Virus record (IMG/VR): IMGVR_UViG_3300032334_001919
Coordinates: 1-26,553 of that record
Strand: one strand, 5' to 3'
DNA from: a virus
DNA length: 26,553 nucleotides
Part shown: positions 8,501 to 25,152 of the stretch, piece by piece
Layout of the letters: every line of letters begins with the position of its first letter
Position numbering within the stretch: the stretch's first letter is position 1
Translations under genes and position numbers: made by a program
Notes under the pieces: generated by a model
The model's database searches: none
Told to the model about the DNA's origin: nothing
Seen by the model: the letters and a program-made list of their open reading frames with translations, nothing else

Positions 8501-8768
8501 TCAAGCAGTTGATTTTTCAATTTGGTTTGCTATGACAGGTTCTAATATTGCTAACTCAAATACAGATTTTACTATTGAAAAAATAGCTGGTGGTGGATAT
8601 ATGGTAGCAGCTTTAAACTTTTTAACTCAAATACAAAGTGGTAGTTATGTAGAGCTAAAATATTCAAAAACCACTGCCCAAGGACAGCTCCTAGCCCAAG
8701 GAATCCGATCAACACCAACCAGGCCCGCAACACCATCAGTTATAGTAACAGTAACACAAATAGCATAA
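5562..8768 (+). CDS. Large tail-fibre protein
   Basis: The 1068-residue fibre protein probably mediates host recognition. Its N-terminus carries GELAINVTDGRLFYG, a typical start of fibres in marine T4-like and Bacteroidota phages. It continues with many TGS/SGS repeats, ASYA-type repeats (SISASYAETASYAATAS at about 136-152), and an SSSFDLGSITNPWRALYV segment near residue 625 that recurs in phage fibre proteins. The last 130 or so residues (from FNYGQFSSTTTQ) form a beta-rich globular domain like C1q/TNF-type jelly rolls, the likely receptor-binding tip. The Ser/Thr/Gly-rich composition fits a long trimeric shaft. It shares the module PLNQ..IITGSL with the fibre at 9461. The receptor is unknown. 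Confidence 0.85.
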   Translation: MSTIITRNSANSGSIPASLVQGELAINVTDGRLFYGSGSGNDVKEFTVSGSGGTIDTGSFATTGSNIFIGNQTITGSIHQSGTFYPDQIDWFSSSIGYNTGSYILTTTANGLTTYANYQDVANTLAPYIPTVSSSISASYAETASYAATASNILGGKATHVPYFITDTSLATSSIYQSGSSTIIINQDNATTANPEALYVWQPSTLSFNVISGKGNLNNYLQLNIQNTNQGTQASSDVVATANNGSETVNYIDMGINSENYSQNFIGAANDAYLYSTGNDLHIGNATPNRPLQFFAGGTDVDIYNKLQLNPNNQHLMSGSLDVSGSIKAFSFTGSLQGNATTATTSQTSSYSTTLGASLSQLVNNQVRLLNSDGTTLSLVIVNNVASASYADNASTADYATTAGNGGVTQIIAGSGISLIPSSGQGAVTVISTGGGGVTIISGSLVTGSFTNATSFTFNHNLSTRTPIITVFDSNYNQIIPENIELVNTASAIITFPTPESGFAIGSTGGTTGTALSSSYALFAEYANTASFYAETDPIFVAKSASLATTGSNVFRGNQIITGSLNISGSTTIIGVTNFSDSSTTITGSLNITGSTTQTGNNTLIGTTTLTGSIFINGNIIPQLSSSFDLGSITNPWRALYVQSGSISIQSDIPGGIPAVISNANGNVTFAGAGFQLKSGSFVPFEISSSARTIIRVPDIPANDVGGLSIIGSSTGVYQGVTNAGGLLHLTSNDGQSSRITSDAYGINSVVAYVGRKARGTAASPLPVQSGDTLTRISTIGWTGPEYGFLMSASSTIASTAIETVALENFTTSSFGTRHTFYNAPLGGTIRTLSTTIDTTGITIPSSSRFFGTASWAENALTASYVRPLNQNVIITGSLKISGSLTEIGDTVLTGSLTLSSGSALNINDGFYVNGNKQFNYGQFSSTTTQSGSADTAYSMTFDTTDFSQGISLVSGSRLTVANTGLYNVQFSSQLHTTANQAVDFSIWFAMTGSNIANSNTDFTIEKIAGGGYMVAALNFLTQIQSGSYVELKYSKTTAQGQLLAQGIRSTPTRPATPSVIVTVTQIA

Positions 8769-8769
8769 G

Positions 8770-9426
8770 ATGAAAATATTTCAACCCATAATAACAGGAT
8801 CATTTAGTGTATCGGGATCAGTATTTTTCCCAACCCTAGTAACATCATCCACTGTTGTTTCTAATGTTGTTATGTTTGGAGCAAATGGAGAACTATTTAC
8901 AACAGCATCTTCAGCAATTGGAGGAGGTGGTGGAGTAAGTGGTGACTATGTGACTACAGCATCTTTTAACGCTTATACAGGATCCAATACATCTCAATTT
9001 GCAGGTACATCATCTTTTGCCTTAACAGCATCATACGTAGCAGGCACTGTTCAAAATGCAATAAATGCACAAAGTGGATCTAATTTTGTTATAACAAACA
9101 CACTTTCACTAAACGGAACCCTAACAGATACAGCTACAATAAATTCAACGATTGTAGGATCAAATAATTTATTCCAACAAGCAACCGGATCACGTACTTC
9201 TGCTCATGGAAAATATACTTTATATAACGGAACAAATGCAAGAGCAGGTGAATTTGTAACAGTGTGGAACGGAACATCAACAGAATATTACGATAATTCA
9301 ACTAAAGATATAGGTGATACAACAGATATAACTTTCCAATCTCTAATAGTAACAGGACAGATCCAAATAAATGCTGTAGCAGCTTCATCAGGTTGGACAG
9401 TAAAAATGATAACAACATATTTATAA
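8770..9426 (+). CDS. Short tail-fibre protein
   Basis: The 218-residue protein starts one base after the large fibre. The N-terminal half has the TGSFSVSGS and ASFAL/ASYV repeat style of the other fibres. A Gly-rich hinge (AIGGGGGVSG) lies near 52-61. The C-terminal domain from about 120 contains ARAGEFVTVWNGTSTEYYDN, KDIGDTTDITF and a final WTVKMI. I recognise this as a recurrent C-terminal domain of phage tail fibres; it is presumably a beta-structured tip. Likely a second, shorter fibre or a tip subunit of the fibre upstream. Confidence 0.75.
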   Translation: MKIFQPIITGSFSVSGSVFFPTLVTSSTVVSNVVMFGANGELFTTASSAIGGGGGVSGDYVTTASFNAYTGSNTSQFAGTSSFALTASYVAGTVQNAINAQSGSNFVITNTLSLNGTLTDTATINSTIVGSNNLFQQATGSRTSAHGKYTLYNGTNARAGEFVTVWNGTSTEYYDNSTKDIGDTTDITFQSLIVTGQIQINAVAASSGWTVKMITTYL

Positions 9427-9460
9427 CCATACTTAGTTGGATAGGGAAAACTAAATAAAC

Positions 9461-10327
9461 ATGGCAAACGAATTCATAGCTCGCAATGGCATCATTGCTA
9501 AAAATAACTCAACAGTAACAGGTTCATTAGATGTTACAGGCTCATTAAATCTTACAGGTTCATTTGGTATACAAACATATGATGGAATTTTAGCAAATGC
9601 ATTTGTTGATGCAATTCGAATATCTAATACGAGTAGAAACATATACGATATATTTGGAAATACTAGTATAGATGCTGGAGGTAGAATTTTAACAGATATG
9701 AATGCTCTTCCATCTGCTAACTGGATGGCTCGCACATTATTTGATTCTAGTCCTTCACCGAGTATAAATTGGGGTTTTAGATATTTGTATAATAGCAGCG
9801 GTAGCATTTCATTGAATTGGGAAACAGGCATATTAACTGGCAGTTTGTTTGGTACTGCTTCATATGCAACTCAAGCCCTAAGTGCTTCATATGCAACAAC
9901 AGCATTAAGTTCTTCATATGCAACAACAGCATTAAGTTCTTCATTTGCTGCAACTGCCTCATTTGTAAACCCATTGAATCAACAACTTATTATTACCGGT
10001 TCATTGCGAGGACAAGTTTCAGCATTATCCATTTCTGGAAACACTGCATCTGTTAATTTATCAACAAATAATTTTTTTACATTGACATTGGCAAATGGTA
10101 CGGGAACCAACATCAACCCAACCAACATCAATCCAGGTCAAACCGTTAACATATTGGTAACGCAAGGATCAGCAGGTACTGGTACAGTTACATTTCCTTC
10201 TTTAGTAAAACAATCATCGGGTTCTTTATATACTGGTTCGGCTGCAGCAAATGCTATTGACATAGTAACAATGATTGCATTTGATTCGACCAATGTTTAT
10301 GTAAGTTCTGTAAGAAATATGATATAA
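9461..10327 (+). CDS. Tail-fibre protein with 9-residue tandem repeats
   Basis: The 288-residue protein opens with ANEFIARNGIIAKNNSTVTG and TGSL repeats, a common fibre N-terminus in Bacteroidota phages. A central part (DIFGNTSIDAGGRIL, SPSINWGFRYL) has beta-solenoid-like periodicity. At about residues 132-167 lie four units of a 9-residue repeat, ASYATTALS and variants, encoded by 27-base tandem DNA repeats. The end from FFTLTLANGTGTNINPTN to the C-terminus is a beta-rich domain found at the end of many phage tail proteins. It follows the 8770 fibre after a 34-base gap. Likely a distal or side fibre. Confidence 0.75.
   Translation: MANEFIARNGIIAKNNSTVTGSLDVTGSLNLTGSFGIQTYDGILANAFVDAIRISNTSRNIYDIFGNTSIDAGGRILTDMNALPSANWMARTLFDSSPSPSINWGFRYLYNSSGSISLNWETGILTGSLFGTASYATQALSASYATTALSSSYATTALSSSFAATASFVNPLNQQLIITGSLRGQVSALSISGNTASVNLSTNNFFTLTLANGTGTNINPTNINPGQTVNILVTQGSAGTGTVTFPSLVKQSSGSLYTGSAAANAIDIVTMIAFDSTNVYVSSVRNMI
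9854..9961 (+). repeat. Four tandem 27-base units inside a fibre gene
   Basis: Units begin at 9854, 9881, 9908 and 9935. Units 2 and 3 differ at one base; units 1 and 4 are more diverged. Each encodes nine residues of the S-S-Y-A-T-T-A-L-S type. The in-frame unit length allows the fibre shaft to lengthen or shorten by recombination without a frameshift. Confidence 0.85.
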
Positions 10328-10330
10328 GTT

Positions 10331-12601
10331 ATGTTTACACCTTTTGCGTTTATACAACCTATTGTAATGGGGCCAATTGTCCCTGCAGTTCCTATTTATT
10401 ATTATGTAGCAGGAAACTTTGGTAATTTTAAAGAACCATCATTTTCTAGAATTGTTGCTACCGACTTATCTGGATCAATTGACACTACATTTAACCCAGG
10501 CCAAACTGGTTTTAACGGTACCGTACGATGTATGGTTACTCAATCAGATGGAAAATTAATAGTTGGAGGAGACTTTACAACATATAGTGGATCAGCAAGT
10601 AATTTCCTAGTTCGTATTAACCCAAATGGTACTAGAGATACTACATTTACATCAGCATTAAACAGTTCAGTATATACTGCTGCTGTTCAATCAGATGGAA
10701 AAATAGTAATAGGTGGAGCCTTTGGAACAGTAAGTGCAGTTTCTGTACCTAGATTAGCCCGTTTAAATTCAGATGGTACCCGAGATACTACATGGAATCC
10801 TGGTTCCACAGGTGCTTCTAATATTGTTAGAGATTTAAAAATACAATCTGATGGAAAAGTTTTAGCAGTAGGAGATTTTACTATATATAGTGGATCAGCA
10901 AGAAACTACATAGTTCGAACAGAAACAAGTGGTACTATTGATAATACATTTAATGTTGGAACAGGATTAGGAAATCAAGCATTTAACGTTCATATACAAT
11001 CCGATGGAAAAATTATAACTGCAGGTGGGTTTATAACATATAGTGGATCATCAAATAACTATATAGTTAGAATAAATTCTAATGGTACTAAAGATAATAC
11101 ATTTACTATAGGTACTGGATTTAATCAAACTGTTTATATATCAAGTTTACAACCAGATGGAAAAATAATTGCAGCTGGTGTATTTACTACTTACAGTGGA
11201 TCATCAAATAATTATATAGCAAGAGTAAATTCTGATGGTACAAAAGATAATACATTTAATGTTGGAACTGGTTTAGATACCAGTTGGGCAGGAGGTATAA
11301 CTAATACAATTTCTTATGACACCCAAAATAATGTTTATTTAGCTTCAGACAATGTTACATATAGTGGATCAGCTATACCTCGTATTTTTAAACTCAAATC
11401 AAATGGAACTTTAGATACAACATATGATGCGGGTGCGGGACTTAATAGATTTGGACTTGCAAATATTGTATCTGGAAACCGATTGTATACTGCAGGAACA
11501 TTTACAAACTATAAAGCTGCTGGAGCTACTGGTATTGCAATGATATCTGATTCTGCTACATTATCTGCATCATTTAATCCAGGCATAGGTTTTAATAATG
11601 ATGTTTGGGCTATGACAAAACAATCTACTGGTAGAATAATTGTAGGAGGAGCATTTACTAATTACAGTGGATCAGTTAGAAATAGAATAATTGGGTTAAA
11701 CTCAAATGGAACTATAGATTCAGGATTTAATGTTGGAACTGCAGGAGCAGGTAATATTGTATATGCTTTAGCTACACAAACTGACGATAAAATTATTGTT
11801 GGTGGAACATTTACAATATATAGTGGTTCAAGTACGTCTACTACAAGGTTAATGCGACTTAATTCAAATGGAACCCAAGATTTAACATATAATACGGGTC
11901 TTGGATTGAATTCATACCCATTGTGTGTTTTAGCTCGTGCAAATGGAAAAATATTTGTAACAGGACTATTTACAACATACAGTGGCTCAGCAATAAATTA
12001 TATCATGCAAACTAATTCAAACGGTACACGTGATACAACATTTAATGTAGGAACAGGATTTGATGCTGGGTTATTTGGATATACAGCTGTTACACAATCA
12101 GACGATAAATTAATTGTTGGAGGTAATTTTACAACATATAGTGGATCTACAGTTAATAGAGTAGTTAGAATTAATACTGATGGAACCCGAGATCTTACAT
12201 TTAGTGTAGGCAATGGTGCAAATACAGTTGTATCAGCAGTAGCATTACAGTCAGATGGAAAAGCAATTGTAGGAGGACAATTTACATCATTTAGTGGCTC
12301 AGCCGTTAATAGACTTGTACGAGTAAATACAAATGGTACTAGAGATACTTCATTTAATGTTGGAACTGGACTTGATGGGTCCGTATCTGCAAATGGAATA
12401 ACTATAGGATCTAATGGTATAATTTATTGTTTAGGTAGTTTTACAACATATAGTGGATCTAATTCTCGAGGTATAGTAGCTATTAATTCTAATGGCACTA
12501 TCAATCAAACATTTACTTCCGGATTAGGAACAGCCTCATTTAACAATACAGCTCAAGGATTTACCTATCTCCAACCACCAAACCAAATGATACCAGTATA
12601 A
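10331..12601 (+). CDS. Delta-60 repeat (beta-propeller-like) virion protein
   Basis: The 756-residue protein consists almost entirely of about 14 copies of a repeat of roughly 54 residues. The repeat pattern is QSDGKIIVGG-FTTYSGS-NxIVRINSNGT-DTTFNVGTG, the delta-60 repeat of bacterial surface proteins. One copy near residue 390-415 is degenerate (FTNYKAAGATGIAMISD). The repeats are predicted to build beta-propeller blades; 14 copies would fit two seven-bladed propellers, which is my inference. No signal peptide or catalytic motif is present. Being last in the fibre block, it is probably a receptor-binding or polysaccharide-binding tail protein. It may have been acquired from a host-type adhesin. 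Confidence 0.8.
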   Translation: MFTPFAFIQPIVMGPIVPAVPIYYYVAGNFGNFKEPSFSRIVATDLSGSIDTTFNPGQTGFNGTVRCMVTQSDGKLIVGGDFTTYSGSASNFLVRINPNGTRDTTFTSALNSSVYTAAVQSDGKIVIGGAFGTVSAVSVPRLARLNSDGTRDTTWNPGSTGASNIVRDLKIQSDGKVLAVGDFTIYSGSARNYIVRTETSGTIDNTFNVGTGLGNQAFNVHIQSDGKIITAGGFITYSGSSNNYIVRINSNGTKDNTFTIGTGFNQTVYISSLQPDGKIIAAGVFTTYSGSSNNYIARVNSDGTKDNTFNVGTGLDTSWAGGITNTISYDTQNNVYLASDNVTYSGSAIPRIFKLKSNGTLDTTYDAGAGLNRFGLANIVSGNRLYTAGTFTNYKAAGATGIAMISDSATLSASFNPGIGFNNDVWAMTKQSTGRIIVGGAFTNYSGSVRNRIIGLNSNGTIDSGFNVGTAGAGNIVYALATQTDDKIIVGGTFTIYSGSSTSTTRLMRLNSNGTQDLTYNTGLGLNSYPLCVLARANGKIFVTGLFTTYSGSAINYIMQTNSNGTRDTTFNVGTGFDAGLFGYTAVTQSDDKLIVGGNFTTYSGSTVNRVVRINTDGTRDLTFSVGNGANTVVSAVALQSDGKAIVGGQFTSFSGSAVNRLVRVNTNGTRDTSFNVGTGLDGSVSANGITIGSNGIIYCLGSFTTYSGSNSRGIVAINSNGTINQTFTSGLGTASFNNTAQGFTYLQPPNQMIPV

Positions 12602-12899: not shown

Positions 12900-13403
12900 A
12901 TGTTATATAAAACGTCTGATAAAGATACTGTTTACAAAGAAATCAAAAAACTACAACCACTAAACTATAATCAATTTAGGTGGTGGAGACGTTTTGACAC
13001 TAAAACAAAACCACTTCCTAAAGGTGCTACGTTTCTACAACGTATCCAAAATGGTGAATATGAATTTTCACACTATTTTTGGCAATGGAAACTTACTGAA
13101 ATTGAATTGAACGATTTACATACACTATACAATGGTGATGTTCAAAAAATGCTTGAAAAGCATGGTGTTGATTTTGCTCGTAGAAAACGTTTGATGGAAG
13201 ATTTCAACAAAGACGAAGCCGACCGACTAGAGGCACTTAAAAATGGTTTTTTACGTGAATTTGATATGACTCCTGATGACTATGAAAATAGCCTTTTAAA
13301 ATTTGATGGGACTACTGAAGAATTTTATGTATATTGTTTGAAAAATTTTGAACGTTCTGGCAGACCAATTGAAAGACGTGGTCGCCCTAAAAAAATTGTA
13401 TGA
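12900..13403 (+). CDS. Hypothetical protein with C-terminal GRP motif
   Basis: The 167-residue protein is helical, charged and rich in aromatic residues (FRWWRRFDTK, FSHYFWQWKL). It ends in a basic tail RRGRPKKIV, which matches the core of an AT-hook (Arg-Gly-Arg-Pro flanked by basic residues) that binds the minor groove of AT-rich DNA. It contains no other domain I recognise. The first gene after a terminator/promoter element, its 3' end overlaps the cytidylyltransferase-like gene by 4 bases (ATGA). The tail suggests DNA association; a phage regulatory role is possible but unsupported otherwise. Confidence 0.65.
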   Translation: MLYKTSDKDTVYKEIKKLQPLNYNQFRWWRRFDTKTKPLPKGATFLQRIQNGEYEFSHYFWQWKLTEIELNDLHTLYNGDVQKMLEKHGVDFARRKRLMEDFNKDEADRLEALKNGFLREFDMTPDDYENSLLKFDGTTEEFYVYCLKNFERSGRPIERRGRPKKIV

Positions 13404-13801
13404 GAATAGGAGTTATAGCAGGAAATTTTGATGTGACCCACCCAGGATACATCCATATGTTTAATGAATGTAAAAAATACTGTAATTATCTTATAGTACT
13501 ATTACACGAAGATCCAACAAATGAAAGACCAGAAAAATTAAAACCAATTTTATCTGTTGAAGAAAGACTATTAATTTTATATTCGCTTAAACAGGTAAAC
13601 CTGGTTATGACCTATAAAACAGAAGCAGAACTTTATGACATTTTAGATGAAATGAATCCTGATGTTCGCTTTTTAGGAGATGATTATATAGGAAAGCCAT
13701 TTACAGGAAATGATTTAGACATCCCAATTCATTACCTAAACAGAGACCATGGTTGGTCAACAACAAAATATAAACAATTAATAGCAAATAGTTTAAAATG
13801 A
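13400..13801 (+). CDS. Cytidylyltransferase-like nucleotidyltransferase
   Basis: The 133-residue protein has the signatures of the glycerol-3-phosphate cytidylyltransferase (TagD)-like family. GNFDVTHPGYIH (residues 8-19) is the nucleotide-binding HxGH region, here H14-P-G16-Y-I-H19. The C-terminal S120-T-T-K123 corresponds to the family's STT motif. Length matches the single-domain enzymes (about 130). Such enzymes join CTP (or ATP) to a phosphorylated alcohol and release pyrophosphate. In a phage it could serve capsular or lipid precursor metabolism, or cofactor synthesis. The substrate cannot be read from the sequence. It overlaps both neighbours by 4 bases, so it is co-translated with ThyX. 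Confidence 0.8.
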   Translation: MRIGVIAGNFDVTHPGYIHMFNECKKYCNYLIVLLHEDPTNERPEKLKPILSVEERLLILYSLKQVNLVMTYKTEAELYDILDEMNPDVRFLGDDYIGKPFTGNDLDIPIHYLNRDHGWSTTKYKQLIANSLK

Positions 13802-14418
13802 ATAATAAAGTTGAATTACTAGGGTATTACGGAGATGATTTAATCCATGCCTGCTCAGCTTGGACTAGTACATCTCGAGAACTTACACCTGAAAAAATAG
13901 AACGTGTACCTAAACTGTTAACAATGTTAGCAAGTGAAGGACATCACACCCCATTTGAAAAATCTAGTTTACACTTTTTAGTAACAGTAGATCAAGCAAC
14001 TCACATCCATTTACTCAAACATAGAATTGGAGTTTCAATTAATGGTGAAAGTGCTAGATATAAAGAATTAAAAGAAGATAAAACATATTTACCTTCAGAT
14101 TGGCCTGAAAGATGGGATACTGCATTACGTAATTTTACACATGAAGCAAATTCTCTTTACCATATGTGTTTAGAGGAATTAACTCCAATATTGGGTCGTA
14201 AACGTGCTAAAGAATCTGCTCGTTTCTTTAAAACATTCAACTCCCAAATTACTATGGATCTTATGTTCAATTGGAGAAGCTTTGTTCATTTTCAACAACT
14301 TAGAAACAGTGAACATGCTCAAGTTGAAGTAAGAGAATTGGCACAACAAATGCTAGAACTAGTTAAAAATATTGAAAACAACCCTTTTAAACACACAATA
14401 GAAGCATTTAAATTATGA
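13798..14418 (+). CDS. thyX: Flavin-dependent thymidylate synthase ThyX
   Basis: The 206-residue enzyme methylates dUMP to dTMP using methylenetetrahydrofolate, NADPH and FAD, supplying thymidine for phage replication. The ThyX motif is at residues 75-88 (HRIGVSINGESARY), matching RHRxxSxNxxSxRY except that the third Arg is replaced. Supporting segments are EGHHTPFEKSSLHF (47-60) near the flavin site and SARFFKTFNSQITMDLMFNWRSFVHFQQLR toward the C-terminus, the latter containing the family's Trp/Arg helix. Length is typical. Its ATGA overlaps couple it to the genes on both sides. ThyX is frequent in phages lacking ThyA. Confidence 0.93.
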   Translation: MNNKVELLGYYGDDLIHACSAWTSTSRELTPEKIERVPKLLTMLASEGHHTPFEKSSLHFLVTVDQATHIHLLKHRIGVSINGESARYKELKEDKTYLPSDWPERWDTALRNFTHEANSLYHMCLEELTPILGRKRAKESARFFKTFNSQITMDLMFNWRSFVHFQQLRNSEHAQVEVRELAQQMLELVKNIENNPFKHTIEAFKL

Positions 14419-16587: not shown

Positions 16588-17382
16588 ATGAAAAAAATAA
16601 CAATATCACATGAGGTACCATTTTGCCTCTTAGAAAAAAGTAGAGAATTTAACGACTACGACTATTGTTTACCCCACTTAATGGATGAAAACGAAGAGTA
16701 CCGTGATTTCTTCTACAAATCAAAAGAAATGGGTCGCTATATTGTAATGGATAATTCACTCCATGAGCTAGGTGAAGCATATGATTCAGACCGTTTAATA
16801 TATTGGATAAATGAAATTAAACCAGATGAATTTATTGTACCTGACGTTTGGGAAGATGCAAAATTATCAATAGGTAACGCAAAACAATGGGCTCAAGTTA
16901 AACTTCCTGAAGGAGTATTAAAAGTTGCTGTAGTACAAGCAAAAAATACATGGGAAGCTGAAGACTGTGTACAAGCTTATAAAAATTTAGGATACCAGAA
17001 AATAGCATTTTCATATGGTGCAGAATATTATCATACAATGTGCCCACATCCAAATAAAGATTTAGGTAAAGCAATTGGACGATACATGGTTGTTCATAAG
17101 TTATACAACAATAAAACATTAACTATGTTTGATCGTGTACATTTGCTTGGAACTGCTTCACCTATTGAATTTGGAATGTATAAAGATATTGAATGTATTG
17201 AATCTATAGATACTTCAAATCCAATCATGGCTGCAATTGGAGAAATGCCATATACAAAAATGGGGTTACATCAAAAACCACTTGCCAACATGAACAAATA
17301 CCAAGATATGAGTATTGACTTCTTAAACGAAGATTTAGTAGAATACAATGTTGAAATGTTTAGAAAAATAAATGAATTATAA
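16588..17382 (+). CDS. TGT-superfamily protein, DpdA-like candidate DNA deazaguanine transglycosylase
   Basis: I choose the ATG at 16588 (264 residues), one base after the previous stop; a start at 16561 would overlap it. The sequence follows tRNA-guanine transglycosylase landmarks. These are MDNSLHEL (D55), VPDVWED (D86), a VAVVQAKN strand like the TGT VQGG loop, and IAFSYGAE like the GGLAVGE loop. RVHLLGTASPIEF (183-195) corresponds to RYLMGVGTP, and D208 in SIDTSNP is a candidate nucleophile. The CxCxxC zinc cluster of tRNA enzymes is absent and the protein is short for a TGT. With queC, queD, queE and folE next door, the best reading is a phage DpdA-type enzyme exchanging guanine in DNA for a 7-deazaguanine. 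The alternative is a tRNA-modifying relative. Confidence 0.72.
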   Translation: MKKITISHEVPFCLLEKSREFNDYDYCLPHLMDENEEYRDFFYKSKEMGRYIVMDNSLHELGEAYDSDRLIYWINEIKPDEFIVPDVWEDAKLSIGNAKQWAQVKLPEGVLKVAVVQAKNTWEAEDCVQAYKNLGYQKIAFSYGAEYYHTMCPHPNKDLGKAIGRYMVVHKLYNNKTLTMFDRVHLLGTASPIEFGMYKDIECIESIDTSNPIMAAIGEMPYTKMGLHQKPLANMNKYQDMSIDFLNEDLVEYNVEMFRKINEL

Positions 17383-17383
17383 A

Positions 17384-17641
17384 ATGGAATATTTAAGTTT
17401 ATACGATTATCTAGGACATGCCGCCGGTAATGAATTAGGTAAAGAAGTAGCAATAGCTGCTAGTAAAGCAGGAATTAAATTAGAAACTCGAGAAGTTTCA
17501 AACCCAAAATATACAGGAATAGTATATTTGTACCCCAAAGACTTTCTTGAAGCATATTTTAGAGAACCAGATTCTATCCATATGGAAGACCTTCCAGGAT
17601 CTATTAACTATAACATTGATGACGACGACTTACCTTTTTAA
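17384..17641 (+). CDS. Hypothetical protein between dpdA-like and queC genes
   Basis: The start at 17384, one base after the preceding stop, gives 85 residues; 17372 is an in-frame alternative. The N-terminal part is amphipathic and helical (GHAAGNELGKEVAIAASKAG). Then a short strand region (TGIVYLYPKDFLEAYF) leads into a strongly acidic C-terminus (IDDDDLPF), a tail seen in DNA-mimic or polymerase-interaction peptides. No family recognised. Its placement suggests a helper of the DNA-modification genes, but the sequence gives no direct evidence. Confidence 0.6.
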   Translation: MEYLSLYDYLGHAAGNELGKEVAIAASKAGIKLETREVSNPKYTGIVYLYPKDFLEAYFREPDSIHMEDLPGSINYNIDDDDLPF

Positions 17642-17643
17642 CT

Positions 17644-17817
17644 ATGGATAAATTAACAAAAGAAGAATTTGAAAAATTTCGTGAAGTTTGGAAATCTGAA
17701 TGGTACGACCATTGGAGACTCTTGGATATTGACTTTAAAGTTTATATGTTGATGAGAGGACTAACCGAAGAACAATTTAAAAAATTAAATAACGACGAAT
17801 TATGGAAAAACATGTAG
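17644..17817 (+). CDS. Very short hypothetical protein upstream of queC
   Basis: The 57-residue frame runs from ATG 17644 to TAG 17817 and fills the gap between the 17384 gene and queC. It starts 2 bases after the preceding stop and overlaps queC by 16 bases. The sequence is charged and helical (LTKEEFEKFREVWKSEWYD, GLTEEQFKKLNNDEL) and Trp-rich, with a helix-turn-helix-like distribution of charges. Tight packing and amino-acid composition favour a real gene. It has no recognisable domain. Confidence 0.6.
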   Translation: MDKLTKEEFEKFREVWKSEWYDHWRLLDIDFKVYMLMRGLTEEQFKKLNNDELWKNM

Positions 17818-18638
17818 TGATTTCCCTGTCTGGAGGAATGGATTCCAGCACACTTTTGTTACGTTGTCTAAGAGAATATGACACTGTAACAGCAATTTCA
17901 TTTGATTATGGTCAAAAACATCGAGTTGAGCTTGAACGTGCTCAATCGTTAGTAGATTATTTATGCTACAAATATGATATTAAATACCGCGTCATTAAAT
18001 TAGACGGATTAACAGATTTACTTAACTCAGCACTTGTAACAGGTGGAGCTGATGTACCTGAAGGACACTATGCTGAAGAAAATATGAAAGCAACAGTTGT
18101 TCCAAATCGTAACAAAATCTTTGCTTCAATTACTCAAGCAGTTGCACTTTCAGTAGCAAATAGAACAGGCGAGCAATGTGATATTGCAATGGGGATACAC
18201 AGCGGAGACCACGCGATCTATTTGGATTGTAGACAAGAATTTAGAGATGCAGACGACCATGCATTTAGAGTAGGTAACTGGGGTTCTGAAAAAGTAGGTT
18301 ACTTTACACCATATCTTGAAGGTGATAAATTTACTATTTTACAAGATGGAGAAACATTATGTAATGAGTTAGGTTTAGACTTTAACGAAGTATACTCACG
18401 TACAAACACTTCATACAAACCAATTTACCATGAATTTGCTTACGAAGAGGGAGATGATATTGTTGAAGTAAAAGAATGGTTTTCCGATTACAAATCAGCA
18501 AGTTCTGTGGAGCGTGTAGAAGCTTTCATTAAATTGGGAAGAAAAGATCCTGTAATGTATGCTGATGAAGAAGGACCAGTAACATGGGATCATGTAGTAA
18601 CAGAAGTAAGTAAAATACTTGAAACACATGCAGGATAA
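17802..18638 (+). CDS. queC: QueC-like 7-cyano-7-deazaguanine synthase lacking the zinc cysteines
   Basis: QueC converts 7-carboxy-7-deazaguanine to preQ0 with ATP and ammonia in two steps through an amide. The 278-residue protein has the PP-loop S10-GGMDSS-16, FDYGQKHRVELE (34-45) and VVPNRN (99-104), and then GIHSGDHAIYLDCRQEF (131-147), all QueC hallmarks. It departs from the family at the C-terminus. The expected SCY...CGxCxxC zinc site reads TNTSYKP (201-207) and SDYKSASSVERVEAF (228-242), with all four cysteines gone. It is about 50 residues longer than typical QueC. It may therefore be a metal-free variant, or stop at the amide product. Start at 17802 overlaps the previous small gene. 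Confidence 0.88.
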   Translation: MEKHVVISLSGGMDSSTLLLRCLREYDTVTAISFDYGQKHRVELERAQSLVDYLCYKYDIKYRVIKLDGLTDLLNSALVTGGADVPEGHYAEENMKATVVPNRNKIFASITQAVALSVANRTGEQCDIAMGIHSGDHAIYLDCRQEFRDADDHAFRVGNWGSEKVGYFTPYLEGDKFTILQDGETLCNELGLDFNEVYSRTNTSYKPIYHEFAYEEGDDIVEVKEWFSDYKSASSVERVEAFIKLGRKDPVMYADEEGPVTWDHVVTEVSKILETHAG

Positions 18639-18672
18639 AAGTATTATAAATTGGGATTTACATCAAAAAATA

Positions 18673-18813
18673 ATGGCAAAGAAAAAAACAATTAAAGTTT
18701 GTACTGGAGTAGGATTAGATCAAATCACCCCTGAGTACATTACAATCGAGCTCTTTGATATCGATACAGAAATTAAAAAACCTAAAACAACAAAGAAAAA
18801 TGGCAAAATATAA
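18673..18813 (+). CDS. Very small basic hypothetical protein between queC and queD
   Basis: The ATG at 18673 gives 46 residues (MAKKKTIKVCTGVGLDQITP to KKPKTTKKNGKI). An in-frame ATG at 18628, inside the end of queC, would add 15 residues. The core is a short beta-like stretch with Lys-rich ends. It overlaps the queD start by 14 bases. The packing argues for a real gene, but the composition is simple and no homologous domain is recognised. Confidence 0.45.
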   Translation: MAKKKTIKVCTGVGLDQITPEYITIELFDIDTEIKKPKTTKKNGKI

Positions 18814-19264
18814 TTCAACTAAATTATTTGACGGGTATTCAACATGTTTCCGTCAATGGAAAGCAGAAGATACGCATTGCAAATTCTTACACGGATATGC
18901 TGTATCGTTTAGAGTATGGTTTGAAGGCGAATTAGATCATCGTAATTGGGTATGGGACTTTGGTGGAATGAAACGATCTAAAACTAAAATACTTGGAATG
19001 TCTCCAAAAGACTATTTTGCTTGGTTGTTAGATCATACAACTATTATTGCTAGCGATGATCCATATTTAGATACATTCCACAAAATGTATTCCGATGGGA
19101 TCATTCAATTAAGGATACTGCCGGCATCTGGTTGTGAAAAATTTGCAGAGCATTTATATAAAATAATAAACAAATTCTTACACGAAGAAACCGAAGGACG
19201 AGTAAAAGCAATTAAAGTAGAAGTTTATGAACATGAAAGAAACTCAGCTAGCTATGGAGAATAG
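18800..19264 (+). CDS. queD: QueD-like 6-carboxytetrahydropterin synthase, divergent
   Basis: QueD turns dihydroneopterin triphosphate into 6-carboxytetrahydropterin, the second step toward preQ0. The start at 18800 gives 154 residues; the 15 residues before it lie in the preceding gene and are not family-like. C27 in THCKFLHGY corresponds to the catalytic Cys of CxxxHGH. NWVWDFGGMK (49-58) matches the WxxDF motif, L77-D-H79 the catalytic Asp-His, and EHERNSASYGE the C-terminal Glu. The zinc histidines differ: HGH is HGY (H31-G-Y33) and the upstream FxAAH reads FRQWK. This T-fold variant resembles QueD proteins I recall from other marine phages. Activity is likely but the metal site is uncertain. 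Confidence 0.82.
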   Translation: MAKYNSTKLFDGYSTCFRQWKAEDTHCKFLHGYAVSFRVWFEGELDHRNWVWDFGGMKRSKTKILGMSPKDYFAWLLDHTTIIASDDPYLDTFHKMYSDGIIQLRILPASGCEKFAEHLYKIINKFLHEETEGRVKAIKVEVYEHERNSASYGE

Positions 19265-19325
19265 TTATTACACGACAACCACCACTTTTGGTGATATTAA
19301 ATTTAAATATATTTTAGTAAAATGA
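19233..19325 (+). CDS. Possible 30-residue ORF between queD and thioredoxin
   Basis: A frame from ATG 19233 overlaps the end of queD and reaches TGA at 19323-19325, which overlaps the thioredoxin ATG in the ATGA manner common here. An ATG at 19254 would leave 23 residues. The peptide is Thr/Tyr/Lys-rich and matches nothing I know. It also runs across a promoter-like motif, which argues against a conserved gene. Confidence 0.25.
   Translation: MKETQLAMENSYYTTTTTFGDIKFKYILVK
19288..19317 (+). promoter_or_regulatory. TTGG-N18-TATTTTAG promoter-like motif before thioredoxin
   Basis: TTGG at 19288-19291 is followed by TATATTTTAG beginning at 19308 (16 bases) or, shifted, TATTTTAG at 19310 (18 bases). 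The TTGG lies in the right arm of a CACCA/TGGTG hairpin (19280-19293). Spacing deviates from the 19 bases of the other copies, and the ATG at 19322 would leave almost no leader. Confidence 0.3.
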
Positions 19326-19570
19326 AAGAAATACTTTATTTTTCAAGCACATGGTGTGGACCATGTAAAAATTTTAAACCAATCATGGAACAAGTTAGCC
19401 GTGAACTACCTGTAAAATTCATTGATGTAGATGCAAATCCTGATATGACAGCAGCTTATGGCGTACGAAGTGTTCCTACTTTAATTGTAGTAAAAGATGG
19501 GCAAGTAGCCGTTAAACAAGCAGGAGTTTTATCTGAATCACAAGTAAAAGGTTTATGGAATCAAAACTAG
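19322..19570 (+). CDS. Thioredoxin
   Basis: The 82-residue thioredoxin-fold protein has the active site W11-C-G-P-C15 and the cis-proline P52 in VRSVPTLIV. The order beta-alpha-beta is that of a minimal thioredoxin, about 25 residues shorter than bacterial TrxA, as in other phage versions. It would transfer electrons to ribonucleotide reductase or other enzymes, or serve a replication complex as in T7, though T7 uses the host protein. It sits among the deazaguanine genes but has its own terminator. Radical-SAM and T-fold enzymes do not need it, so the location may be incidental. Confidence 0.93.
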   Translation: MKEILYFSSTWCGPCKNFKPIMEQVSRELPVKFIDVDANPDMTAAYGVRSVPTLIVVKDGQVAVKQAGVLSESQVKGLWNQN

Positions 19571-19577
19571 GGTAAAA

Positions 19578-19612
19578 GGAGACCATAGTTTTGTATGGTC
19601 TCCCTCCTCTTT
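19578..19612 (+). terminator. Terminator hairpin after thioredoxin
   Basis: A perfect 10-base stem (GGAGACCATA, 19578-19587, with TATGGTCTCC, 19594-19603) closes a GTTTTG loop. It is followed by the pyrimidine-rich CTCCTCTTTC rather than a clean T run. It lies 8 bases after the thioredoxin stop and before the HNH gene. Confidence 0.7.
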
Positions 19613-19637
19613 CAATATGTATAATAAACAATATATT

Positions 19638-20018
19638 ATGGAAGAGCAAAAACCAAAAGGTAATACCCCTGAATATCGTGCATGGTATTATAAAAACAAA
19701 TACCAAAAAACAGGTAAAACAAAAAAGAAAGAATTTGAACAACGTAACAAAGAATTTATAATTCGATTTAAAAAACGTTGTAAATGTGTTAAATGTAATT
19801 TAAACAAATGGTATCTAATAGAGTTTCACCACCTAGACCCATCTTTAAAATACAAATCTGTAACTGATTTACAGTTTAATGCATATAGTATTAAAACAAT
19901 AAAAGAAGAAGTACGAAAGTGTGTTCCTATTTGCAGAAACTGCCATATGGAATATCATTATTTGGAGAGACAAAATATAATTCGTACATTTGAAGAGTAT
20001 TTAAAATTAGATATATGA
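19638..20018 (+). CDS. HNH endonuclease (possible free-standing homing nuclease)
   Basis: The 126-residue protein from ATG 19638 (19617 is an earlier in-frame ATG) has a basic, Tyr/Lys-rich N-terminal half. This is followed by an HNH core: C50-x2-C53, then H64-H65-L-D67 and a C99-x2-C102-H103 zinc pair. This is the treble-clef HNH arrangement seen in phage homing and nicking nucleases. It lies alone between the terminator after thioredoxin and queE, overlapping queE by 4 bases, so it looks like a mobile endonuclease inserted in the deazaguanine block. It could instead be a packaging-associated HNH, but no terminase is near. Confidence 0.8.
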   Translation: MEEQKPKGNTPEYRAWYYKNKYQKTGKTKKKEFEQRNKEFIIRFKKRCKCVKCNLNKWYLIEFHHLDPSLKYKSVTDLQFNAYSIKTIKEEVRKCVPICRNCHMEYHYLERQNIIRTFEEYLKLDI

Positions 20019-20800
20019 ACAAAATCTTAAGAATGACAGAAGCCGAAAAGGCAAAGACACAAGCAATTATAGAACTTTATAGATGTGTGCAATCCGAAGG
20101 TAGCAGATTTGGAAGACCTACAATTGCAGTTCGTACAACTGGTTGTACCCATAGATGTTACTTTGGAGAAGGTGGTTGGTGCGATTCTTTTTACACCTCC
20201 ATTCACCCTGAAAAGGCCCAATTCAGTTTTAACGATGTCGTTAAAATATACGATGAAAATCCCCATATTAAGGAGATGATGCTTACCGGCGGAAGTCCTA
20301 CAATGTGGCCTAAATTAGTTAATGAATTAACACATTTTGCACATGAAAGAGACATTCTTATTACTATTGAAACTGAAGGCTCGCATTATATTGAGACCGA
20401 TTATCCTATTGGTCTTTTATCTATTAGCCCTAAGTTTACAAATTCTATTCCCGTTGTGGGAGTGGCCACACCGCAAGGTGATATTGTCGACGATAAAATG
20501 GTTCGACAACATAACAAGTTTAGAATGAACTTAATCGCAATAAGTGCAATGATTAATTTTCATACAGACTATCATTTTAAACCAGTTTGGGATGGTACAG
20601 AGGAAAATTTAAATGAAATTGAAGAGTTTAGAACATCGCTTAAAATCCCTAAAGATAAAACATACATCATGCCAGCAGGTGATACTCGTGAGGAACTTAT
20701 TAAAATGTATCCACTAGTATTTGATATGTGTGCTGAAAAAGGTTACAATATGACAGGAAGAGATCACATAATTGCTTTTGATACAAAGAGAGGTGTTTAA
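20015..20800 (+). CDS. queE: QueE 7-carboxy-7-deazaguanine synthase (radical SAM)
   Basis: QueE rearranges 6-carboxytetrahydropterin to 7-carboxy-7-deazaguanine using SAM and a 4Fe-4S cluster. The 261-residue protein has SEGSRFGRPTIAVRTTGC ahead of cluster cysteines C44-x3-C48-x7-C56 (GCTHRCYFGEGGWCD). The last gap is seven residues instead of two, one of several QueE-type departures from CX3CX2C. The SAM-binding region reads MLTGGSPTMWP, with GGSP in place of GGEP, and TIETEGSHYI follows like the family ETNG segment. The start at 20015 overlaps the HNH stop (ATGA); an ATG six codons later is possible. It is the third pathway step, between queD and queC. Confidence 0.88.
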   Translation: MNKILRMTEAEKAKTQAIIELYRCVQSEGSRFGRPTIAVRTTGCTHRCYFGEGGWCDSFYTSIHPEKAQFSFNDVVKIYDENPHIKEMMLTGGSPTMWPKLVNELTHFAHERDILITIETEGSHYIETDYPIGLLSISPKFTNSIPVVGVATPQGDIVDDKMVRQHNKFRMNLIAISAMINFHTDYHFKPVWDGTEENLNEIEEFRTSLKIPKDKTYIMPAGDTREELIKMYPLVFDMCAEKGYNMTGRDHIIAFDTKRGV

Positions 20801-20807
20801 AAAATAC

Positions 20808-20838
20808 TTGGATACTCCAAAAACCTTATTTATATTTA
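20808..20838 (+). promoter_or_regulatory. TTGG-N19-TATATTTA promoter-like motif before folE
   Basis: TTGG at 20808-20811 and TATATTTA at 20831-20838 are separated by 19 bases. A short inverted repeat TTGGA-TAC-TCCAA (20808-20820) covers the upstream box. The folE start at 20856 follows 25 bases after the -7 box begins, and is preceded by AAGTTAT. Good candidate for the folE-MazG run. Confidence 0.5.
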
Positions 20839-20855
20839 CAACAAATTAAAGTTAT

Positions 20856-21554
20856 ATGTCAGAAAACACACGTAGAAAAACACACACAGAATTAGAATGT
20901 GTACAAGTAGGTTATGCAAACGGAGTTGCACCCGGTTTTCCACTTACTGAAAATGAAAAATGGAAAATGGTAGATGAAGCAGAAGAAGCTTATGGTAAAT
21001 TTTTAGATGCTTTAGGATGTGATTGGCGAAACGATCCAAATTCATCAGAAACACCTCGTCGAGTAGCTAAAGCTTATGTATTTGATTTATGGGCAGGTAG
21101 ATATACTGCAATGTCAGATATAACTTCATTCCCATCAGACGGATACGATGGTATTGTAATTGAAAGAAACATCCCAGTTACTTCAATGTGTTCACACCAC
21201 CACCAAACAATTGGAGGAGTAGTTCATATTGGTTATGTAGTTGGAGAAGGTGGACGAGTAATTGGTTTATCTAAATTGAACCGTATTGTAGAATTATTCG
21301 GCCGTAGAGGAGCTATTCAAGAGCAATTAACTTCAGCTATCCACAATGCAGTAAACAAAGTATGTGAAGGAAACAGAGGTATTATCGTTACAGTAGTAGC
21401 AACTCACAATTGCGTATCTTGTAGAGGAGTAAAACACCAAGGTGCTTCAATGGTTACAACAAAAGCATCAGGTGTGTTTATGGAAAACGATAACCAAGCA
21501 CGTAAGGAATTTTTCGATAGTATTAAAATCAATAATGGCGGACACCAAATTTAA
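20856..21554 (+). CDS. folE: GTP cyclohydrolase I
   Basis: The 232-residue zinc enzyme opens the GTP ring to make dihydroneopterin triphosphate, the first step toward preQ0 and also folate. Zinc ligands are C112 and H115 (MCSHHHQTIGG) and C186 (HNCVSCRGVKH), and the signature GLSKLNRIVELFGRR...QEQLT (137-159) is intact. SSETPRRVAKAY (63-74) is the usual N-terminal motif. The start has a long non-conserved tail of about 35 residues ahead of the core. Host cells normally have FolE, so a phage copy suggests a need for extra pterin flux into deazaguanine. It is separated from queE by a promoter-like motif. Confidence 0.95.
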   Translation: MSENTRRKTHTELECVQVGYANGVAPGFPLTENEKWKMVDEAEEAYGKFLDALGCDWRNDPNSSETPRRVAKAYVFDLWAGRYTAMSDITSFPSDGYDGIVIERNIPVTSMCSHHHQTIGGVVHIGYVVGEGGRVIGLSKLNRIVELFGRRGAIQEQLTSAIHNAVNKVCEGNRGIIVTVVATHNCVSCRGVKHQGASMVTTKASGVFMENDNQARKEFFDSIKINNGGHQI

Positions 21555-21788: not shown

Positions 21789-22406
21789 ATGAGCCCACTA
21801 GAACAAAAACAAGACGAGTTAATTGAATTGCTTTATGGACAAGTTATGGACCTTACAATAATGTCTAAAATTGAACTTGGAGATGATGTAATAGAAAAAT
21901 TTCGTACATTAAGAAGTGAAATTACTCAAATGAAAGAAAGTTATGTACCTTTTGTGTCAGAAGTTGAAGAGTTTAATGCAGTAATGGGAAAACCCAATAA
22001 TTATACCCCGGTCATTCCCGATGAGAAGGAATGGATGTTTGTCTACAATTTCGTTTTGGAAGAACTCGAGGAATATAAACATGCGTGCGAAACCGGAAAT
22101 ATTGTTGAAGTTCTTGATGCTCTATGTGACATCACCTACGTTTCCCTTGGTAACGGAGCTATGTTACATGGTCTTAAGGATAAAATATGGCCCGCGTATC
22201 AAGAAGTACAAGCATCGAATCTTAGTAAAGCTTGCATTAGTGAAGAAGAGGCACAAGAAACCATTAGAGTACGTACCCAAGAGCAAAAGACAGCATGTCA
22301 CTATGAAAAGGTTGGAAAATATTATATCGTCTATAGAAGCTCAGACCGTAAAGTGATGAAAAATGTAAATTACTTTAGACCTGATTTAACACAGTTCTTT
22401 AAGTAA
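21789..22406 (+). CDS. MazG-like nucleotide pyrophosphohydrolase
   Basis: The start at 21789, one base after the previous stop, gives 205 residues; an upstream TTG is unlikely. The central motif is E91-E92-x2-E95 (LEELEEYKHA) followed by D110-x3-D114 (DALCDIT). This is the metal-binding ExxE...ExxD-type pattern of all-alpha NTP pyrophosphohydrolases, continuing with LGNGAMLHG. The C-terminus extends with a Lys/Tyr-rich domain (EKVGKYYIVYRS). It would hydrolyse a nucleoside triphosphate, such as dUTP or a modified dNTP, to monophosphate and pyrophosphate. Cyanophage MazG proteins have been proposed to act on (p)ppGpp. Substrate not readable. Confidence 0.8.
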   Translation: MSPLEQKQDELIELLYGQVMDLTIMSKIELGDDVIEKFRTLRSEITQMKESYVPFVSEVEEFNAVMGKPNNYTPVIPDEKEWMFVYNFVLEELEEYKHACETGNIVEVLDALCDITYVSLGNGAMLHGLKDKIWPAYQEVQASNLSKACISEEEAQETIRVRTQEQKTACHYEKVGKYYIVYRSSDRKVMKNVNYFRPDLTQFFK

Positions 22407-22422
22407 TATTTAAATAAAAGTT

Positions 22423-25152
22423 ATGTATCAAGCGGTTTTCTATAACAGATTGCCCGGAGACGACCAATGGTCATATTATCTTCGGGATGATAAAAAAGGT
22501 ATACACAAATTCCAGTACTGGCCTACAGTCTATAAACTTGATGAAGAGGGAGAATTCGAAACACTATTTGGTGAAAGGTGTTCTCCCCTTCAAGGCAAGT
22601 ATGATAGAAAGGATCCTACTATTCTAGAAAAAGATATTGACCGTGAACTTGTATTGTTGCGAGATCTGTACTTTGAAACAGATGAAATGCCAGAATATCA
22701 CAATACAGTTTATTTAGATATTGAGATTGAAATTCTAGGTGCACTTACCCCACAAACCATTAAAGAAGCAAATGCTGAAGTTACAGCAATTGCCTTAATT
22801 GATACTTCAACTAAAGAAAAAATATGCTTTATCTTAGATAAAGAAAGTAAAATTGATGAAGTAGATTTAGATGGTAAGAAAGTTATTCCTTGTATTGACG
22901 AAAACACTTTACTACGTAATTTTTTAAACAAATGGGAACAGATGGATCCTACAATTGTAGTAGGTTACAACAGTGATTTCTTTGATATTCCATATTTGTA
23001 CTATAGAATTAAAAAACGTTTAGGAGATGATGTATATCGTTTATCCCCTATAGGTAAAATTGAAGAGGTATTATCTCAACCAAATTCTCCAATTCGTATT
23101 GGTTTAGTTAACAGTTTAGACTATATGCATTTGCTTCGCAAGTATATGATGAAAGAAGAACCATCATACAAGTTAGGTGACATAGGTTTGAAATATGCTA
23201 AACTAGGAAAAATAGAATACAACGGTAATCTAGATACTTTATTCAGAGAAGACCCAAACAAATTTATAGACTATAACATTCGAGACGTTGAAATTATAGA
23301 AGCGTTAGAGGAAAAACAGAAATTTATTGAATTGACTGTTTTGATTTCTCACCTATGTCATACACCATACGAATCGATCTACTATAACACTATATTGAAT
23401 GAAGGTGCTATTTTAACGTATTTAAAACGTAAAAACATAATTGCGCCAAACAAGCCAACAACTACAAACCCCACGATTAGAGATTTAGAGTTAGGTGATC
23501 ACGTAGTACATCAAAGAGGTACTCCAACCGTTGAAGGCACGGTGTATAGCTTTGAAGACAAACAAATTATAGTTAAAACACTATCTGGAAAATATATTGC
23601 TCGTAACCCTAAAACAGTTAAGAAAAAAGACAGCTACGCAGGTGGATATTTACTTGACCCTAACCCAGGTTTGTATTCAGATGTGAGTGACCTTGACTTT
23701 ACCTCACTATATCCTTCAATTATCAAATCACTTAATTTAGGTATTGAAACGTTGATAGGTAGAATTGTTACAAAAAACAATTACGAACAGTACAATTCAC
23801 TTGAACAGCTAAAACAACGTGACCCTGAAGAAAAAGTACACATTCAAAAGTTAAGCAGAAAATCATATCAACTAAAAGATGCTACTATAGCAGTAGGTGC
23901 TTTAATTAGATTGATTGAAGACAATAACTGGACAATTTCAGCTAGTGGAGCGTTTTTTACAACTGATAAGAAAAGTATTGCTTGTGAAGTACTAGAAGAT
24001 TGGTTTAATCAGAGGGAACATTATCGAGCACTTAAGAAAAAAGCAGGTAAAGCAGAAGATTGGGCCAATTACAAACTATATGACTTGTATCAAATGGCCT
24101 TTAAAATCTTACAAAACGCTTTATACGGTACATATGCAATTAATTCATGGCGTTTTACAGATGGATTTAAAATATGCTCTGCTGCTATTACAAACAGTGG
24201 TCAACGCTTAACAAAGGAATCGATTATATTTGTGAACAAGTATATTTCCGATCAACTTGAAATTGACCCTAGAGAATTTGTTATCGCCTCAGATACCGAT
24301 TCACTTTATATGGAGTTAACAGATTTGCTTAAACATAGAAACTCTGATTTAAACTACAATGATCGTGAAGAAAAAATCAAACGATTGTTGGTTTTGACAG
24401 AGGAACTCCAAGATGTAGCAAACAATAATCTGAATAATATCACGCAGGATCTGTTCAATATGCATGGCAAACACCACTTTGTATTAAAGCAAGAGGTAAT
24501 CGCTGAAAAAGCGTATTGGGCTGGTAAACGTAGATACGCTATTTACATTGTAAATAAAGAAGGTGTACCTATTGAGGAACTAGAGATGAAAGGACTAGAC
24601 ATTATGAAATCTAATTTCCCCCCTTACTTTAGAAACTTTGGAGAAGACCTAATCAAAAACATCCTATTCAGTAAACCAAAAGAAGACATAGACAAAGATG
24701 TAATGGATTTTAAAAATTCAATGCAAACGGTAGAGTGGATTAAGTTGCTTAAACCAACAGGACTGAAAAAAATGGGTGAATATATTGAACGTAAACCTAT
24801 GGCTGGTGAATTGTTCTCTAAATTGAAACTAAAATGCCCTATCAACACTAAAGCAGCTATAATTTACAATGACTTTTTACGTTACAAAAAGCTTAATGTA
24901 AAGTACCCTGAATTTACAATTGGGGATAAAATGTATATAGCTTATTTAAAACCAAACCCATACCAGATTGAGGTAATAGGTTACAATGGCTATAATGATC
25001 CTCAAGAAATTACAGATTTGATCAACAAATATATAGACCGTGATGGTTTATTTGATAGTGTAATCAGAAACAAGCTTGAATCGCTTTATTCTGATATCGG
25101 TTGGCCATTAAATTTGAACCCATACCGTGCAAAATTTTTCAATTTTAGCTAG
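22423..25152 (+). CDS. DNA polymerase, family B (T4 gp43-like)
   Basis: The 909-residue replicative polymerase has 3'-5' exonuclease and polymerase domains. Exo I is D99-I-E101 (YLDIEIE), Exo II is VVGYNSDFFDIPYL, and Exo III is YNIRDVEI. Polymerase motif A is D425-F-T-S-L-Y-P-S, motif B is K561-x3-N565-A-L-Y-G569, and motif C is D624-T-D626-S. All catalytic residues are present. An extra segment at about 350-402 (GDHVVHQRGTPTVEGTVY...) sits between the exonuclease part and the palm and looks like a small beta-barrel insertion; no intein motifs are seen there. The protein should work with the sliding clamp encoded next. T4 gp43 is 898 residues, so length is normal. Confidence 0.96.
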   Translation: MYQAVFYNRLPGDDQWSYYLRDDKKGIHKFQYWPTVYKLDEEGEFETLFGERCSPLQGKYDRKDPTILEKDIDRELVLLRDLYFETDEMPEYHNTVYLDIEIEILGALTPQTIKEANAEVTAIALIDTSTKEKICFILDKESKIDEVDLDGKKVIPCIDENTLLRNFLNKWEQMDPTIVVGYNSDFFDIPYLYYRIKKRLGDDVYRLSPIGKIEEVLSQPNSPIRIGLVNSLDYMHLLRKYMMKEEPSYKLGDIGLKYAKLGKIEYNGNLDTLFREDPNKFIDYNIRDVEIIEALEEKQKFIELTVLISHLCHTPYESIYYNTILNEGAILTYLKRKNIIAPNKPTTTNPTIRDLELGDHVVHQRGTPTVEGTVYSFEDKQIIVKTLSGKYIARNPKTVKKKDSYAGGYLLDPNPGLYSDVSDLDFTSLYPSIIKSLNLGIETLIGRIVTKNNYEQYNSLEQLKQRDPEEKVHIQKLSRKSYQLKDATIAVGALIRLIEDNNWTISASGAFFTTDKKSIACEVLEDWFNQREHYRALKKKAGKAEDWANYKLYDLYQMAFKILQNALYGTYAINSWRFTDGFKICSAAITNSGQRLTKESIIFVNKYISDQLEIDPREFVIASDTDSLYMELTDLLKHRNSDLNYNDREEKIKRLLVLTEELQDVANNNLNNITQDLFNMHGKHHFVLKQEVIAEKAYWAGKRRYAIYIVNKEGVPIEELEMKGLDIMKSNFPPYFRNFGEDLIKNILFSKPKEDIDKDVMDFKNSMQTVEWIKLLKPTGLKKMGEYIERKPMAGELFSKLKLKCPINTKAAIIYNDFLRYKKLNVKYPEFTIGDKMYIAYLKPNPYQIEVIGYNGYNDPQEITDLINKYIDRDGLFDSVIRNKLESLYSDIGWPLNLNPYRAKFFNFS

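Follow-up and report, generated by a model that had tools for sequence, protein, structure and literature searches.

The DNA of the Campylobacter phages CP220 and CPt10 (Firehammervirus) has 100% of its deoxyguanosine (dG) replaced by 2'-deoxy-7-amido-7-deazaguanosine (dADG; PMC8306585). Hutinet 2019 grouped the dADG-containing Campylobacter phages as lacking DpdA and repeated the proposal that the modified base is incorporated at the nucleotide level (PMC6884629). Other described systems, represented by DpdA1 of Escherichia phage CAjan, which contains 2'-deoxy-7-cyano-7-deazaguanosine (dPreQ0), and by DpdA2 of Vibrio phage nt-1, combine FolE, QueD, QueE and QueC with an enzyme of the tRNA-guanine transglycosylase (TGT) fold. 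Here we describe a locus with the same combination in the virus record IMGVR_UViG_3300032334_001919, which encodes a DpdA3-like candidate DNA-guanine transglycosylase together with a QueC protein that lacks the zinc-binding cysteines. The window analysed was the entire record of 26,553 bases, which is itself a fragment, so that genes beyond its ends were not seen.

Positions 16588–21554 harbor on the + strand, in this order, genes for a TGT-fold protein, two small open reading frames (ORFs), queC, a small ORF, queD, a thioredoxin gene, an HNH endonuclease gene, queE and folE. Downstream of folE follow a small ORF and then, also on the + strand, the genes for a MazG-like nucleotide pyrophosphohydrolase (21789–22406) and a family B DNA polymerase (22423–25152). 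The original prediction had proposed a full gene set from GTP to 7-cyano-7-deazaguanine (preQ0), a TGT/DpdA-like protein and, as their joint role, the presence of a deazaguanine in the phage DNA. We consider it very probable that this gene block serves to hypermodify the phage DNA by DpdA-type base exchange and thereby counteracts restriction. The product that FolE, QueD, QueE and QueC form from GTP would be a free 7-deazaguanine; preQ0 is the most likely candidate, and the amide 7-amido-7-deazaguanine (ADG) is possible. After replication, the compact DpdA protein would exchange guanines of the phage DNA for this deazaguanine, and the modified DNA would resist restriction by the host.

The TGT-fold protein (16588–17382, + strand) has a length of 264 amino acids. 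Its start at 16588 is an ATG immediately after the stop codon of the preceding ORF, and in 36 of 51 aligned rows (the protein itself and 50 viral relatives) no extra N-terminal residues were present. Searches of Pfam and NCBIfam gave no TGT match above cut-off, and PHROGs gave only phrog_19058 of "unknown function", so the assignment to the TGT superfamily cannot come from routine annotation. Structure supported this assignment. The AlphaFold2 model (pLDDT 93.9, pTM 0.90) adopts the TIM barrel of the TGT type, and all 50 best matches listed by Foldseek for the PDB were tRNA-guanine transglycosylases (E 3.8e-9 to 1.5e-7). Among viral predicted structures the model matched proteins of Cellulophaga phage phiST and Vibrio phage nt-1. 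In this way a protein for which the family databases state no function received a structure-based assignment.

Residues resembling a TGT active site were invariant in 50–51 of the 51 rows. D55 (in DNSLHELG) was invariant in all 51 rows, D86 (in a PD motif) was invariant as well, and D208 (in SIDTSNP) was found in 50 rows, with the remaining row gapped at this position. Q117 and HLLG at 185–188 were also conserved. In a weak profile alignment (E 0.58) the segment HLLG...SIDTSNP paired with HLLG...SIDSTTP of 7ui4, a solved DNA-guanine transglycosylase structure. D208 is the probable nucleophile according to this weak alignment and the order of motifs, and D55 is the probable acid/base according to motif order only. 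A census of cysteines in the protein and its relatives revealed nothing conserved that resembles the cysteine cluster of the TGT zinc site.

Full-length sequence homology was found to gp056 of CP220 (hhalign probability 100%, E 3.3e-47, 35% identity), which places the 16588 protein in the CP220 group. The identities to the counterparts from CP220 and from Flavobacterium phage vB_FspM_immuto_2-6A (immuto) were 34–37%, and by tblastn the protein was 34% identical to the immuto protein that is annotated as DNA guanine transglycosylase (DpdA). Homology to the phiST protein was weaker (E 6.5e-12). We equate the CP220-type group with DpdA3, which Cui et al. 2023 reportedly named and linked to complete replacement. 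Thus, the fold as well as the homology to CP220 gp056 and to immuto DpdA bear out the predicted TGT/DpdA-like protein, and they support a deazaguanine modification of phage DNA as the likely role of the block. The presence of a TGT-fold relative in CP220 also argues for base exchange.

CP220 and immuto differ from the window in different ways. CP220 shares the compact TGT-fold protein (about 36% identity) and phage-encoded QueD and QueC, but its queD and queC are widely separated and both are distant from dpdA, and its QueC contains the zinc cysteines and the motif FPDC. DpdA, QueC and QueD of immuto are 34%, 74% and 60% identical to those of the window, and both phages have a cysteine-less QueC, a QueD with HGY and a QueE with the motif CX3CX7C. 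In contrast to the window, immuto has QueF and formyltransferase genes adjoining dpdA, with queC at a distance of about 15 kb. The systems with DpdA1 and DpdA2 have the canonical zinc-containing QueC, and no sequence similarity was detected between the window protein and CAjan DpdA or VH7D gp012.

The genes of the pathway to preQ0 were confirmed as predicted: all four were intact, were located on the + strand and showed strong matches to Pfam or PHROGs families. FolE (GTP cyclohydrolase I; 20856–21554) matched Pfam GTP_cyclohydroI with 8.5e-43 and has its zinc ligands. QueE (7-carboxy-7-deazaguanine synthase, a radical SAM enzyme; 20015–20800) matched phrog_2076 with 1.4e-45. Its radical SAM cluster motif is CX3CX7C in place of CX3CX2C, as in 51 of 54 relatives. 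For QueD (6-carboxytetrahydropterin synthase; phrog_2389 8e-35, Pfam PTPS 5.4e-14) the start was set at 18800, inward of the mechanical call at 18755, and the gene ends at 19264. QueD shows the variant CxxxHGY instead of the canonical CxxxHGH, with DHT and the C-terminal E kept. We rejected HGY as a novelty, since many annotated phages encode close relatives of this QueD and since Cellulophaga phage phiSM and Fastidiosibacteraceae have HGY as well. QueC (17802–18638) matched Pfam QueC with 3e-35.

To see how the block is conserved, viral contigs were scanned, and 80 of 116 transglycosylase relatives were kept. Gene content was counted over 84 records (the 80 loci, immuto, CP220, the window and the window's own sub-locus), many of which were shortened by contig ends. 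Under these conditions queC was found in 74 records, queD in 63, thioredoxin and queE in 58 each, folE in 42, mazG in 41 and polB in 35. The order dpdA-queC-queD-trx-queE-folE-mazG-polB was repeated in dozens of contigs from uncultured phages. Since the same order recurred this often, the clustering is not due to chance. The probable DNA-modification system belongs to a known kind, which it extends to a widely distributed group of uncultured phages.

The QueC protein departed from the described enzymes in one feature. Canonical QueC is characterized by the motifs SGGxDS, YxQxHxxE, VPxRN and YPDC and by the zinc motif C(x)8CxxCxxC (PMC13329287). The window protein has SGGMDS, YGQKHRVE, VPNRN, YLDC and K. 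Among 57 distinct viral QueC sequences, SGGxDS, YxQxHxxE and VPxRN were present in all 57 and YxDC in 56. The zinc motif was found in none of the 57, and also in none of 80 sequences from a second viral scan. The zinc segment is replaced by the near-invariant TSY...SDYKSASSVER, in which we read the four cysteine positions as S, D, S and S. Compared to canonical QueC (cluster 1 of PF06508; Libby et al. 2026, PMC13329287), the window protein lacks all four cysteines, whereas the catalytic motifs, the conserved tyrosine of the zinc segment and the fold are the same. Its predicted structure (AlphaFold2, pLDDT 93.5) had the QueC structures 2pg3 and 3bl5 as closest solved folds, and its score was below the cut-off of NCBIfam TIGR00364 (124.7 vs. 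150.3). Statements on the zinc site are based on the zinc-bearing homologs that we found and on PMC13329287, and not on the E. coli sequences in our alignments.

We also looked for this QueC type in a genome collection. From 80 QueC matches, 71 were without the TCY signature and nine had it; several of the 71 were phage contigs binned into genomes, as dpdA was present. Genuine cellular cases of cysteine-less QueC included marine Poseidoniales archaea, Pirellulaceae and Fastidiosibacteraceae. Poseidoniales and Pirellulaceae have another set of substitutions, e.g., TSYSPDADGRSSGRTGSDVER, and the sets seen were S/D/S/S and S/S/T/D. A quick QueC tree that left out the zinc segment required one or two changes of the cysteine-less trait, and QueC from Fastidiosibacteraceae/Thiotrichales nested among phage sequences in the tree.

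In all 15 cellular genomes tested, among them those of Poseidoniales, Pirellulaceae and Fastidiosibacteraceae, the cysteine-less protein was the only strong QueC match (119–147 bits, the next match having about 27 bits or less). A canonical TGT was present in 14 of the 15. All six genomes of the Thiotrichales/Fastidiosibacteraceae contained QueF, and these six also had the canonical TGT. At five loci examined in this group (L107, L108, L109, L111, L113), phage-type queE and queD adjoined queC, and the stretch contained no dpdA. Identities to the window in four aligned loci were 52–58% for queE and 40–42% for queD. The nesting of their QueC among phage sequences suggests a transfer between phage and cell, in either direction.

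QueF acts on preQ0. The presence of QueF and TGT in genomes with the cysteine-less QueC, and of a QueF with recognizable motifs together with the same QueC type in immuto, points to preQ0 as the product, so that the cysteine-less QueC probably makes preQ0. If preQ0 is the product of QueC, the base in the DNA should be dPreQ0 unless a further step exists. We searched for enzymes of such a step. Phages with dPreQ1 or dG+ are characterized by QueF/QueF-L or a glutamine amidotransferase. QueF, formyltransferase and GATase_6 were all absent from the nearest relative of 166 kb, which differs in the first two from immuto. GATase_6 was found nowhere among the large relatives searched, and QueF and formyltransferase were found there in immuto only. 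A weak QueF match in G005 was rejected because it was the FolE of G005. The original prediction had also assumed that the small genes between the pathway genes define the final base. This part was not supported: these genes encode thioredoxin, an HNH endonuclease and short ORFs without family match, and in family searches none of them resembled a known final-step enzyme.

The most likely base in the phage DNA is dPreQ0, and dADG is possible. For dADG to be the final base, the cysteine-less QueC would have to halt at the amide before the nitrile is formed, which we regard as rather unlikely. QueC does work through ADG (PMC13329287), CP220 with its related DpdA carries dADG, and no dedicated amide-forming enzyme was found. 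However, the QueC of CP220 has the zinc site, and loss of zinc does therefore not track with dADG. Moreover, genomes in which the cysteine-less type is the only strong QueC contain TGT, and the six of them that were tested also have QueF, an enzyme dependent on preQ0. The immuto phage likewise pairs this QueC with QueF. An equation of zinc-less QueC with dADG was set aside as the leading interpretation in view of CP220 and immuto.

Several observations weigh against DNA hypermodification by DpdA-type base exchange as the function of the block. Sequence profiles gave no link to DpdA1 of CAjan, to the proteins of phiSM and Dp-1 or to VH7D gp012, and the hhalign probability was below 1% for CAjan, Dp-1 and VH7D gp012 (a candidate DpdA2), which places the protein outside the DpdA1 and DpdA2 subfamilies; the phiSM and Dp-1 proteins carry the annotation queuosine tRNA-ribosyltransferase. 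The link to DpdA2 of nt-1 is one of fold only. Since the zinc site is intact in the QueC of CP220, where the base has been measured, the base of this comparator is not simply transferable to the window phage. Finally, a gene for a final step may lie outside the fragment, and the cysteine-less QueC or the HGY-type QueD could be impaired.

The nucleotide-level route once proposed for the Campylobacter phages would require that a deazaguanine deoxynucleoside triphosphate is made and then incorporated by the phage polymerase, with the TGT-like protein as an auxiliary factor. Such a route fits the MazG-like pyrophosphohydrolase and the family B polymerase as fixed neighbors and the phosphoribosyltransferase genes that many relatives have in the block. 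Nevertheless we consider it improbable, since the proposal predates the recognition of DpdA in Campylobacter phages, where a TGT-fold relative is now seen, and neither a deazaguanine kinase nor a deoxyribosyltransferase was seen in the window. It is very improbable that these are auxiliary metabolic genes by which the phage raises preQ0, and hence queuosine in host tRNA, with the TGT-like protein acting on tRNA. The same QueE-QueD-QueC type can feed tRNA modification, as it occurs in bacteria that have both canonical TGT and QueF but lack DpdA in its vicinity. However, the TGT-like protein does not have the cysteine cluster of tRNA TGTs, and it has a relative in CP220, a phage with DNA reported to be fully modified. 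In addition, no tRNA genes were found in the window, and in dozens of contigs the transglycosylase gene remains linked to the pathway genes and the DNA polymerase gene.

Published descriptions treat the zinc site as a hallmark of QueC and zinc as a requirement, yet none of the four cysteines is present in the clade described here, which has members in phages, archaea and bacteria and retains the other catalytic motifs. Our literature search found no description of a zinc-independent QueC. We therefore regard the cysteine-less clade as new with respect to the literature searched, and as an unexpected and testable variant. If the protein is active, the metal would be dispensable for preQ0 synthesis, and the clade would offer a natural test of the role of zinc. 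Zinc-poor marine water may possibly have driven the loss of the cysteines. In Neisseria meningitidis, queC is listed under the control of the zinc uptake regulator (PMC6103462). Only tentatively can it be considered that a large group of uncultured phages replaces all guanine by a deazaguanine, made through a route in which QueC works without zinc, and that marine archaea, Planctomycetes and Fastidiosibacteraceae use the same zinc-free QueC for tRNA modification.

The remaining genes of the block, all on the + strand, differed in their conservation. Thioredoxin (19322–19570, active site motif WCGPC) was part of the cluster in about 58 relatives and was nearly always present in the block of relatives. 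The HNH endonuclease (19617–20018; phrog_2255, 7.4e-22) was found by similarity in only two records and is probably a homing insertion. The gene for 89 amino acids (17372–17641) had no family match but was found in 49 relatives, and it was also located upstream of queC in viral loci without dpdA nearby. The gene for 57 amino acids (17644–17817) was present in about 23–29 relatives, and the ORF for 64 amino acids (18619–18813) overlaps the ends of queC and queD.

Many relatives have a phosphoribosyltransferase-like gene between folE and mazG (e.g., L064:6602–7015 and L039:12837–13343). It could salvage the guanine that would be freed by base exchange. The gene was also present in immuto and was absent from the window. 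Further upstream, a gene for 167 amino acids (12900–13403, + strand) without family match encodes an AT-hook-like tail, RGRPKK. It looks like a family of genes for about 170 amino acids with AT-hook-like tails, which were located near dpdA in 57 loci. Direct homologs of the window protein were found in four relatives of 150–166 kb and were not found in immuto or CP220. The protein is a possible DNA-binding partner of the transglycosylase. Upstream of the block the window also encodes a flavin-dependent thymidylate synthase ThyX (13798–14418; Pfam Thy1, 1.2e-29), and the region 5562–12601 harbors long tail-fiber-like proteins rich in TGS/GSS repeats, including ORFs for 1068 and 756 amino acids.

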